Shown: positions 34,043 to 36,482 of the stretch, piece by piece
Numbering within the stretch: position 1 is the first letter of the stretch
How the letters are laid out: each line of letters opens with the position of its first letter
From: a virus
Direction: 5' to 3' (one strand)
IMG/VR virus record: IMGVR_UViG_3300015360_000015
Coordinates: 1-36,482 of that record
Length of the DNA stretch: 36,482 nt
Notes under the pieces: generated by a model
Databases searched by the model: none
What the model saw: only the letters and a program-made list of their open reading frames with translations
Told to the model about the DNA's origin: nothing
Position numbers and translations under genes: made by a program

Positions 34043-34444
34043 ATGACAAAAACACTTTCTGAACTAGTAAACCTAAGAAATATTATTTTTTACGGACTTA
34101 ATGACAATGAAGCGCAAGTGTTTCAAGGAAAATTTGTTGAAGTTTTAGCGATTAACGCTGATTTATCACAGGTAATACCACAATTTATGATTTGGTTGTT
34201 AAGCGATAAGAAAGATGGCGTTATTCAATACATGAAGGAGGGCGATAAAAGAGCAATGAAAATAGTTGTCGGTCTTTATAAGAAAGAACTTGAAGGGCTA
34301 GAGGTTACCAACGAAGAACGGTCTAAAGCTCTCGCTGGTTCTTTTCATGCTTTTTTTGTCGCTGATGCTGCCAAAGAAACTCATTACAAAAAAATTGCTG
34401 ATAAGTTGATTGAGTTGATTGAAGGGGCAAATTGGAGTAATTGA
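34043..34444 (+). CDS. Hypothetical helical protein (133 aa)
   Basis: This is a helical protein without cysteines or membrane spans (MTKTLSELVNLRNIIFYGLN). ATG 34043 follows GGAACAAA, a weak ribosome binding site. It is the last gene before the non-coding locus, and the tRNA-like 3' half starts within 10 nt of its TGA at 34442-34444. Function is unknown. Confidence 0.6.
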   Translation: MTKTLSELVNLRNIIFYGLNDNEAQVFQGKFVEVLAINADLSQVIPQFMIWLLSDKKDGVIQYMKEGDKRAMKIVVGLYKKELEGLEVTNEERSKALAGSFHAFFVADAAKETHYKKIADKLIELIEGANWSN

Positions 34445-34449
34445 AGGTT

Positions 34450-34489
34450 GAGGCAGGGGGTCACACAGGTTCGATTCCTGTACGCCTGA
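34450..34489 (+). tRNA. tRNA-like 3' half (T arm and acceptor strand), upstream of its 5' half
   Basis: ACAGG-TTCGATT-CCTGT (34465-34481) is a perfect T arm with the conserved TTCGA loop. It is followed by ACGCCTG and A as a 3' acceptor strand and discriminator. Upstream, GGGGG (34456-34460) and a 4-nt TCAC variable loop fit the 3' strand of an anticodon stem. No matching 5' half lies upstream, where a protein gene ends. A fitting half lies 70 nt downstream instead. An attachment-site-like tRNA fragment is the alternative reading. Confidence 0.5.
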
Positions 34490-34559
34490 TAAAATTTAGC
34501 CTTATGAGTATATAAAGGAAATCCGGAATTACTTTATAGGTAGTAAAGCAGATTTTTTG

Positions 34560-34593
34560 TTGGTGTTCGTCTAGTGGTCAGGACGTCCTCCGT
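34560..34593 (+). tRNA. tRNA-like 5' half (acceptor strand, D arm, anticodon stem strand)
   Basis: TTGGTGT, TC, then GTCTAGTGGTCAGGAC forms a near-perfect glutamate/aspartate-type D arm with U8 and both loop guanines. GGTGT pairs with ACGCC of the upstream half (five consecutive pairs including one G-U), but position 2-71 is a U-U mismatch. CCTCC or TCCTC can pair with GGGGG of the upstream half. The anticodon cannot be fixed, because the usual loop pattern is broken where the structured domain begins. Confidence 0.5.
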
Positions 34594-34760
34594 CTGAGTC
34601 TTGAATCAAAGATTGAAAGTGGTGGGGGTGTTTAGTGCTAGCGAAGTGCTTTGAGGGTACCTACATGATAAGCCACCTCTCGCAGCAAGGCGGGGATACC
34701 TACTAGCAGGGTTTGTTAAAGCCCCTTTAGACCCACCACTTTGAGTCTTTGAATGACTCA
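34594..34760 (+). ncRNA. Structured RNA domain attached to the tRNA-like 5' half
   Basis: AAAGTGGTGGG (34616-34626) and CCCACCACTTT (34732-34742) form a perfect 11-bp closing stem. Inside it, TGCTAG (34636-34641) pairs with CTAGCA (34703-34708). A CTCGC/GCGGG hairpin (34679-34694) and a GGGTTT/AAGCCC hairpin (34709-34724) follow. TTTGAGTC/GACTCAAA (34741-34763) makes a final 8-bp hairpin. TGAGTC at 34595-34600 could instead pair with GACTCA at 34755-34760 and enclose everything. Core motifs of group I or II introns, tmRNA and RNase P RNA were looked for and not found. It is an unrecognised RNA family. Confidence 0.5.
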
Positions 34761-34789
34761 AAAAGCACATTGTTTTGTTCGTGGTCATT

Positions 34790-34814
34790 GCCAACTCGGC
34801 AGTGGGCTTTTTTT
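34790..34814 (+). terminator. Rho-independent terminator of the tRNA-like/structured RNA locus
   Basis: GCCAAC (34790-34795) pairs with GTGGGC (34802-34807) with one A-G mismatch around a 6-nt loop, followed by seven T (34808-34814). It ends the non-coding locus just before the duplicated gene fragment. Confidence 0.7.
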
Positions 34815-34823
34815 GATTGGGGA

Positions 34824-34953
34824 AAGGAAGATTGCTTTCAATTGCTATAACTCATTTAGAGGCGGCAATGTTATATACAAAAGAGGCTACTAGTTAGTCC
34901 TTTCTGCCCTACGGGGCAGTTGTGGGTTAATTAATTGAAGGAGCAAAATGAAA
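34824..34953 (+). repeat. Long direct repeat, copy 2 (partner 2112-2241)
   Basis: This segment matches 2112-2241 at constant offset with few mismatches, including the UACG hairpin (34904-34919) and the GAAGGAG site before ATG 34948. It begins 10 bp after the terminator, so the duplication seems to have joined directly behind the RNA locus. Confidence 0.9.
34829..34897 (+). pseudogene. 3' fragment of the 51-aa gene at 2030
   Basis: The frame RLLSIAITHLEAAMLYTKEA ends at TAG 34895-34897 and corresponds to the last 22 codons of the gene at 2030-2185. It has no start codon or upstream coding part. Changes relative to the parent (for example TA to AA and IN to TS) are few. It is a carried-along remnant of the duplication. 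Confidence 0.7.
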
Positions 34954-35253
34954 ACAACAAAGTTAAGATCATTGTTAAATAACTTTCTACAGGATATTGA
35001 TACCGAAGCTCAGATAGACACTAAGACCGCAAACGCCATAGTGGATGCTCACTTGAGACTATTTCAGGCTTATTCTGGAAAAATCCGGAGAGAAACTGCT
35101 AAAGAAATTGTAGAGTTTCTGGATGGTCTTGAAATAAACCAACCATTTGATTTGAAAACTGATAATTGGCGGAACTGGAAGTATATAAAAAACTCGATTG
35201 TTGATGAATACGGCGTTCCAAGTCAGGCGGATAGTTTAGAATCAAATGGATGA
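34948..35253 (+). CDS. Hypothetical helical protein (101 aa)
   Basis: ATG 34948 is preceded by the strong GAAGGAG of the duplicated leader. The protein (MKTTKLRSLLNNFLQDIDTE) is helical and acidic, with a tryptophan-rich stretch near residue 75 (NWRNWKYIK). Its end overlaps the methyltransferase start (ATGA at 35250-35253), so the two are translationally coupled. It may be an accessory of the methyltransferase, but no family was recognised. Confidence 0.65.
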   Translation: MKTTKLRSLLNNFLQDIDTEAQIDTKTANAIVDAHLRLFQAYSGKIRRETAKEIVEFLDGLEINQPFDLKTDNWRNWKYIKNSIVDEYGVPSQADSLESNG

Positions 35254-36482
35254 AAATAATACAGGGAGACAGTTTGGTAAAGCTAAAAGAGCTACCAGAA
35301 AACAGCGTTGATTCCGTTGTCTGTGATCCACCGTATGGTCTTTCATTTATGGGTAAAAAATGGGATTACAATGTACCTAGCGTAGATTTATGGAAAGAAG
35401 TATTAAGAGTATTGAAACCGGGTGGACACTTACTTTCATTTGCAGGCTCACGGACTTACCATAGAATGGTGGTGAACATTGAGGACGCTGGATTTGAAAT
35501 CCGTGACCAAATTATTTGGGTTTACGGGTCGGGGTTTCCAAAATCGCATAACATAGGCAAGGCAATTGATAAGTTGCAAGGAAATGAGAGGGAAATAATA
35601 TCAGAAACATTTAGGGGCGAAAATGCAGGAAAACAGTCAGGGATCATGGGGAAAACTGTATCCAGAACAGATACTTTGTCCAAAGGAACATCACCCTATG
35701 AAGGCTGGGGAACTGGTCTAAAACCTGCTCATGAAGATATTGTTCTAGCTAGAAAGCCACTATCCGAAAGCACTATTGCGCAAAACGTACTCAGGTGGGG
35801 GACTGGTGGGATAAATATAGATAGGTGTAGGGTGAGGACAGAAGAAAAACTAGAAATAGTACAAGGTAATAATAAAGAAACAAGTACACCTAATGCTCCC
35901 AATAATGGTTGGAAAAGTGAGCCACAAACTCAAGGTAGATTCCCCGCAAATTTCCTGCATGACGGAAGTGATGAGGTGGTAGGGTTGTTTCCTGATAGTA
36001 CAAGCGGTTCAATCAAAGAAGGTACGAAGCAAGGGTTTGCTGGCACTGGTATTTATGGGAACAGCAATGGTGTTACAACCGAGAGGAACGCCAGCAAAGG
36101 CTCTGCCTCACGCTTCTTTAAGACCTGTAAAGATACGCAAAAGCATGCTATAATGAGTGTATGCAACGATATAAATGTAAACAATGTGGGAAGCAATTTG
36201 ATGATTTCCCAGCTAACAGAAAAAATCGTAAAAATACATTCTGTTCTAAAAAGTGCAACGCCCAATTTAGATTTGCTAAACCAAAACCTAAATGCCTTGT
36301 TTGTGGAACAGAGTGCAAAAAACACAGGAATAGATTTTGTAGCAAAACTTGTAGTAATCAAGGAAGTCCCAGAGGATTTGGTGAGCCAAGAGGAATTACA
36401 AGCTATTCAGGACTTTATTACAAACTGCAAAAAATGTTCCCTAACCCAGAGAAATGCAGATGCGGAGAAATGGGAAAGCATA
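35250..36482 (+). CDS. DNA methyltransferase, N-terminal part (continues at 1-651)
   Basis: The frame is open to the window end and continues at base 1, for 586 residues in total. Visible motifs are IIQGDSLVKLKELPENSVD, catalytic DPPYG (residues 28-32) and VLRVLKPGGHLLSFAGSRTY, which mark the N6-adenine/N4-cytosine methyltransferase family, beta order. The conserved core runs to GSASRFFKTC (about residue 290). After this the sequence stops looking like a methyltransferase for about 145 codons, because the same DNA encodes the HNH nuclease in another frame. The conserved KASKRDRNEG then resumes beyond the junction. The frame stays open through the insertion, so a full-length enzyme with a large inserted loop is possible. 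Confidence 0.88.
   Translation, partial: MKIIQGDSLVKLKELPENSVDSVVCDPPYGLSFMGKKWDYNVPSVDLWKEVLRVLKPGGHLLSFAGSRTYHRMVVNIEDAGFEIRDQIIWVYGSGFPKSHNIGKAIDKLQGNEREIISETFRGENAGKQSGIMGKTVSRTDTLSKGTSPYEGWGTGLKPAHEDIVLARKPLSESTIAQNVLRWGTGGINIDRCRVRTEEKLEIVQGNNKETSTPNAPNNGWKSEPQTQGRFPANFLHDGSDEVVGLFPDSTSGSIKEGTKQGFAGTGIYGNSNGVTTERNASKGSASRFFKTCKDTQKHAIMSVCNDINVNNVGSNLMISQLTEKIVKIHSVLKSATPNLDLLNQNLNALFVEQSAKNTGIDFVAKLVVIKEVPEDLVSQEELQAIQDFITNCKKCSLTQRNADAEKWESI
36146..36154 (+). promoter_or_regulatory. Extended -10 promoter inside the methyltransferase gene
   Basis: TGCTATAAT is a perfect extended -10 element. Its last base is 6 nt before the HNH ATG at 36161, predicting transcription start at the start codon. 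The -35 region at 17 bp (TGTAAA) is weak, as is common with extended -10 promoters. It would let the nested nuclease be expressed apart from its host gene. Confidence 0.65.
36161..36482 (+). CDS. Nested HNH homing-type endonuclease, N-terminal part (continues at 1-260)
   Basis: ATG 36161 opens a 152-codon frame, offset by two bases from the methyltransferase frame, that runs across the junction to TAA 258-260. The N terminus MQRYKCKQCGKQFDDFPANR starts a series of cysteine pairs (CKQC, FCSKKC, CLVCGTEC, FCSKTC) that form zinc knuckles before the HNH core encoded at 75-260. The start has no ribosome binding site but lies exactly where the TGCTATAAT promoter would begin transcription. Such multi-zinc HNH proteins are typical phage homing nucleases. 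Confidence 0.85.
   Translation, partial: MQRYKCKQCGKQFDDFPANRKNRKNTFCSKKCNAQFRFAKPKPKCLVCGTECKKHRNRFCSKTCSNQGSPRGFGEPRGITSYSGLYYKLQKMFPNPEKCRCGEMGKH
36360..36482. repeat. Terminal direct repeat (copy 2)
   Basis: This segment is identical to bases 1-123. It should be removed when the circle is closed. Confidence 0.9.

Follow-up and report, generated by a model that had tools for sequence, protein, structure and literature searches.

A candidate permuted tRNA-like RNA with a second, stem-closed domain in an accessory cassette of a small podophage

The DNA analysed here (the window) comprises the 36,482 nucleotides of the IMG/VR virus record IMGVR_UViG_3300015360_000015, which represents an uncultured phage. 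Its ends carry an exact 123-base repeat (positions 1-123 are identical to 36360-36482), and it is therefore a complete contig, circular and 36,359 bases long; a DNA methylase gene spans the contig junction, and a circular relative, G005, also has a terminal repeat, of 127 bases. The record is listed among linear ones despite its circular appearance. The capsid, portal and adaptor proteins match SU10 families and the genome encodes a DnaB-like helicase, a primase and an SSB, while neither a Phage_integrase nor a Resolvase domain was found in it.

The RNA locus described below is bordered by genes on both sides (Table 1). On the 5' side, similarity to the end of a paralogous gene in the near-identical sister contig L011 ends near 34432, and on the 3' side similarity to another part of the window, 2110-2241, begins with the truncated gene at 34822. 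The full copy of that gene lies at 2030-2185 and matches the Acb2/Tad1 hairpin domain (PF24729, E=8e-7) of a family of anti-CBASS/anti-Thoeris sponges. L011 has no Acb2/Tad1-like gene at the place of 2030-2185 and carries instead about 300 extra bases 3' of the RNA. Its RNA, 100% identical over 364 bases, was the only true second copy in a pattern search of viral contigs and, being identical, leaves a single independent sequence; the 11 other matches to the 16-mer pattern were coding regions of unrelated phages. No whole-RNA homologue was retrieved by blastn in phages and plasmids or by a scan for neighbouring proteins, no copy was detected by blastn in twelve terminase relatives and G005 (some terminase relatives have tRNA arrays elsewhere), and a terminase scan of bacterial genomes found no host. 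The RNA is an accessory (moron) cassette of the phage, since no copy is detectable in relatives and a 95% identical copy of the end of the Acb2/Tad1-like gene follows directly after it.

Table 1. Features of the RNA locus (window coordinates)
Feature	Position	Strand	Description and basis
RNA cassette, limits inferred	34433-34816	+	Between the 3' end of ORF 34043-34444 and the truncated Acb2/Tad1-like gene copy
Closing (anticodon-like) stem, 5' strand	34451-34460	+	AGGC-A-GGGGG; pairs with 34587-34595, probability 0.82-0.91
T arm	34465-34481	+	ACAGG-TTCGATT-CCTGT; perfect 5-bp stem, consensus loop TTCGATT; sequence and model R1
3' acceptor-like strand	34482-34489	+	ACGCCTG (34482-34488) and A34489 at the discriminator position, no encoded CCA; pairs with 34562-34566
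Linker	34490-34559	+	Spacer of about 70 nt separating the two acceptor strands; in a constrained fold it can lengthen the acceptor helix (34488-34494/34555-34561)
5' half	34560-34586	+	Acceptor TTGGTGT, T8, C9, D arm GTCT-AGTGGTCA-GGAC, then GT; sequence and model R1
Closing stem, 3' strand	34587-34595	+	CCTCCGTCT; pairs with 34451-34460
Second domain	34596-34759	+	Outer helix GAGUC/GACUC, 9+11 bp closing helix, 105-nt interior
Intrinsic terminator	34785-34814	+	Hairpin 34785-34805 and T run
95% identical copy of 2110-2241	34822-34953	+	3' part of the Acb2/Tad1 hairpin gene and downstream leader; truncated gene beside the RNA

A preliminary description of this locus, made from the sequence, had noted two tRNA-like halves in reversed order, and this arrangement is borne out: an intact T arm and 3' acceptor strand (34465-34489) lie about 70 nt upstream of an equally intact Glu/Gln-type 5' half (34560-34586) resembling the Glu-type 5' halves of phages. 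The elbow nucleotides all agree with the consensus (T8-A14, G15-C48, G18G19 with T55C56, T54-A58). Both halves are orphans, because the upstream sequence is coding and holds no matching 5' half, while no T arm is found downstream. The five acceptor pairs claimed between them form one contiguous run (34482-34486 with 34562-34566); the U2-U71 mismatch, regarded as a weakness, is present, but a constrained fold also allows U34487 to be a single bulge within a 12-bp helix that runs into the linker. The anticodon stem is better than had been thought, with 9 bp and one bulge (AGGC-A-GGGGG/CCUCCGUCU, i.e. GGGGG/CCUCC and AGGC/GUCU around bulged A34455). The anticodon loop had been called unclear; the strands of the anticodon region pair straight through and leave no loop open, so that the locus does not have the normal-order cloverleaf with an open anticodon loop that defines a tRNA. 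Fold probabilities are 0.9-0.99 for the T arm and about 0.5-0.6 for the acceptor and the D arm (for the closing stem see Table 1). The full cloverleaf lies 1.1 kcal/mol above the free minimum, with no tertiary bonus counted; the slightly more stable alternative at that minimum is a hairpin formed by the acceptor strand and the D arm. The linker alone folds no better than its shuffles (z -0.8).

In shuffles of the flanks that left both arms unchanged, at least 5 contiguous acceptor pairs arose with p=0.036, a closing stem of the observed energy with p=0.007, and both together with p=0.00035 (0.035% of the trials). The last value bears on the main and serious rival explanation, namely that the locus consists of two truncated neighbouring tRNAs from a decayed array: the first would have kept its 3' end and the second its 5' end, the partner halves having been lost by recombination at the cassette borders, and the complementarity would be due to chance. 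Such a history would agree with the gene-cassette breakpoints on both sides of the RNA, with the arrays, including odd tRNAs, that related phages carry upstream of the terminase gene, and with the fact that tandem tRNAs fit a permuted model about equally well (see below). However, a chance origin has to contend with a joint pairing probability of about 3.5e-4, with halves that are pristine at all tertiary positions, with a closing stem that extends past the anticodon stem, and with a 5' half that continues directly into a domain closed by a stem and then a terminator. We regard a decayed array as unlikely, though clearly worth reckoning with.

Conventional searches give no sign of a tRNA: ARAGORN called 0 genes, neither tRNA nor tmRNA, and Rfam yielded no tRNA or tmRNA and, even at permissive E-values, nothing apart from one chance match. 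If the halves are rearranged into the normal order, a weaker test than the flank shuffles, ARAGORN does call a tRNA-Gln(CTG) with an intron, as it also does for 10% of shuffled controls (p ~0.1). This call, together with the TCTGA in the 5' half that resembles a Gln anticodon loop, would fit a true permuted gene for tRNA-Gln (CUG) or a Glu-like tRNA, in which the linker is excised by RNase P and 3' processing and the anticodon ends are joined, via a circle or a permuted intron. That the halves make a working tRNA in this way we consider improbable: the closing stem contains the anticodon bases, pairs 1:72 and 2:71 are weak, there is no evidence of splicing or processing, and no group I or other intron was matched. 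A group I intron or PIE reading was likewise discarded for want of an Rfam match, and also because the second domain is too small and there is no upstream intron half, the ORF preceding the RNA extending to 34444.

A degenerate or divergent permuted tmRNA would account for the succession of T arm, acceptor, intervening segment, acceptor, D side, P2-like stem and coding-like domain, and permuted tmRNA genes have an order and a linker length similar to those in the window. On the other hand, neither the tmRNA nor the tmRNA_permuted model of Rfam matches even at E<=10, ARAGORN reports no tmRNA, reading of the sequence revealed no tag with an ALAA-like end, and the D arm is canonical whereas tmRNA lacks one; this origin seems very improbable. 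Still less credible is the possibility, raised in the preliminary description, that 34450-34489 is an attachment-site copy of a host tRNA end, here the 3' end, through which the phage would integrate. A T arm with a 3' acceptor end is typical attP content and L011 ends at 34467, inside the T arm, but the lack of integrase and resolvase domains argues against integration, no exact 24-base copy occurs in 84,980 species genomes (a test of exact matches only), and an attachment site would leave the 5' half, 70 nt downstream, unexplained.

The 5' half is followed by what had been described as a compact domain closed by a perfect 11-bp stem. The stem is exact (34616-34626/34732-34742) and is extended by nine further pairs (34606-34614/34744-34752), the closing helix being significant (z -4.0, 0/200 shuffles); the interior (34627-34731), in contrast, folds no better than shuffles (z +0.31). 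Interpretation of the inverted repeat as a MITE was rejected, as its flanks are inverted (GAGTC/GACTC) and not direct target repeats. The terminator proposed at the end is present, while no sigma-70-like promoter was found.

A search for similar modules, started from the 5' half of the window, revealed the same order of arms in unannotated regions of the phages Phosso, phiM12, Trina, Magritte, A3Wally, Moogle and JLBYU28 and of several IMG/VR contigs; such modules are numerous in phages, Felixounaviruses among them, and mostly unannotated. Sinorhizobium phage Phosso has two of them (L019 500-700 and 745-910), whose closing stems differ (TTGCAGG/CCTGCAA versus TGTGAGC/GCTCACA), phiM12 has one with a 17-bp closing stem (L023 455-607), and Rhodococcus phage Trina has two (L024 280-395 and 482-614), just upstream of a Ro-like gene. 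The modules of these three phages belong to the Y RNA type; their closing stems covary, and they are unannotated or labelled 'tRNA-OTHER'. Covariation among the phage modules is in part a matter of construction, since they were picked by acceptor pairing. The Rfam YrlA model matches some of them below its gathering score, with E values of 1e-4 to 1e-6. In a covariance search with a permuted model, as had been proposed for the locus, model R1, built from the phage modules, has a full-length match in the window at 38.2 bits, but does not discriminate, since ordinary tandem tRNAs reach 36.6-49.6 bits. A literature search returned no paper describing permuted tRNAs as a phage feature, its coverage not extending to the key Y RNA papers.

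In the search for long linkers, one possible second example emerged where about one such match is expected by chance, a candidate permuted Glu-type module with a 55-nt linker, 6/7 acceptor pairs and a GCGGG/CCCGC stem (L118 9257-9360). Two further candidates were dismissed, L110 because an ordinary tRNA-Glu stands there next to an orphan T arm, and L086 because it likewise contains an ordinary tRNA. A recurring element, in which nnCAGCAA follows a short hairpin, interrupts the anticodon loop of normal-order phage tRNA genes as an insert about 45-60 nt long (L017 516-770, L053 ~328-446, L059 at 6574 on the minus strand, L084 ~8954 and 9186, L120 ~4392, L157 at 1303 on the minus strand). It also flanks permuted modules in other phages, including coliphages (L052, L055, L056, L088, L120, L123), and may correspond to stems of Y RNA kind located within tRNAs, or else to small introns. 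A related phage carries a tRNA-like gene with the anticodon arm CGATGA/TCATCG and an enlarged loop of about 19 nt that ARAGORN does not call (L003 11515-11605).

The preliminary description had left the choice between a permuted tRNA and a tRNA-mimicking RNA. The architecture, and the presence of the same permuted module in many phages, speak for a mimic, whereas a decoding tRNA is not supported because no anticodon loop is left open. The explanation we prefer, and to which we give an even chance, is that the accessory cassette specifies a noncoding RNA of about 370 nt, composed of a permuted tRNA-like module, a second domain and a terminator, which acts as a decoy or scaffold. The cassette would be transcribed into this RNA, whose 5' part would fold into the closing stem, T arm, capped acceptor helix and D arm with their elbow contacts, sharing its topology with the module by which bacterial Y RNA/YrlA mimics tRNA; the stem-closed second domain and the terminator would follow. 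The tRNA-like elbow might then be exposed to host tRNA-binding proteins, such as nucleases, modification enzymes or PNPase-type degradosomes, and the RNA, rather than decoding, would serve as a decoy or scaffold, plausibly in anti-defence. We infer this role from the suggestion that YrlA is a possible competitive inhibitor of anticodon nuclease (PMC7790460) and from the neighbourhood of Acb2. More specifically, and more tentatively, the locus may represent a Ro-independent two-domain phage RNA, in which an autonomous domain closed by a stem is joined to the permuted module and which is directed as an anti-defence decoy or scaffold at tRNA-targeting host proteins.

Among known systems, the permuted tRNA genes of algae and archaea also encode the 3' half before the 5' half, but the window belongs to a bacterial virus and has neither evidence of a splice junction nor an open anticodon loop. 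The permuted two-piece tmRNA (RF04321) has in common with it the T arm and acceptor upstream, the intervening segment, the 5' acceptor strand and a P2-like stem, from which the window is set apart by its canonical D arm, the absence of a tag reading frame and the absence of a model match. The modules of the seven phages named above share the arm order, the intact elbow and the outer closing stem, and in the case of phiM12 and Phosso also the Glu-type 5' half TTCGTCTA; however, they have linkers of 4-13 nt instead of about 70, mostly perfect 7-bp acceptors, and no second domain identified. Bacterial Y RNA has been described as a circularly permuted tRNA mimic (PMC11472068), and Ro proteins and YrlA have been reported from phages (PMC7765460; PMC7824862). 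The YrlA-type Y RNA (RF02553; structure 6CU1) and the window have in common the permuted module of T arm, self-closed acceptor helix and D arm that typifies Y RNAs, in a non-decoding topology and, for the window, with the pairing read from a single sequence; in both, a stem of the outer strands of the RNA replaces the anticodon stem. Nevertheless, the YrlA model gives no match at E<=10 in 34300-35000, neither of the Ro-binding stem motifs (GCCGA..GGTTATC and nnCAGCAA) flanks the module upstream of the T arm, and no Ro60/Rsr (TROVE) gene (PF05731) was found on the phage side, in the window genome and five related records. For these reasons, and because of its longer linker and its added 3' domain and terminator, we do not file the RNA as a Y RNA, although it looks like a Ro-independent variant of one; should it function at all, it would do so as Y RNAs do, mimicking a tRNA with a stem on the anticodon side. 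If real, it would extend the range of the known permuted tRNA mimics, the Y RNAs, to a small podophage that has no Ro and to an RNA with an additional domain. It also suggests that the tRNA arrays of phages, E. coli laboratory phages among them, hold many permuted tRNA-like RNAs, most of them without annotation.
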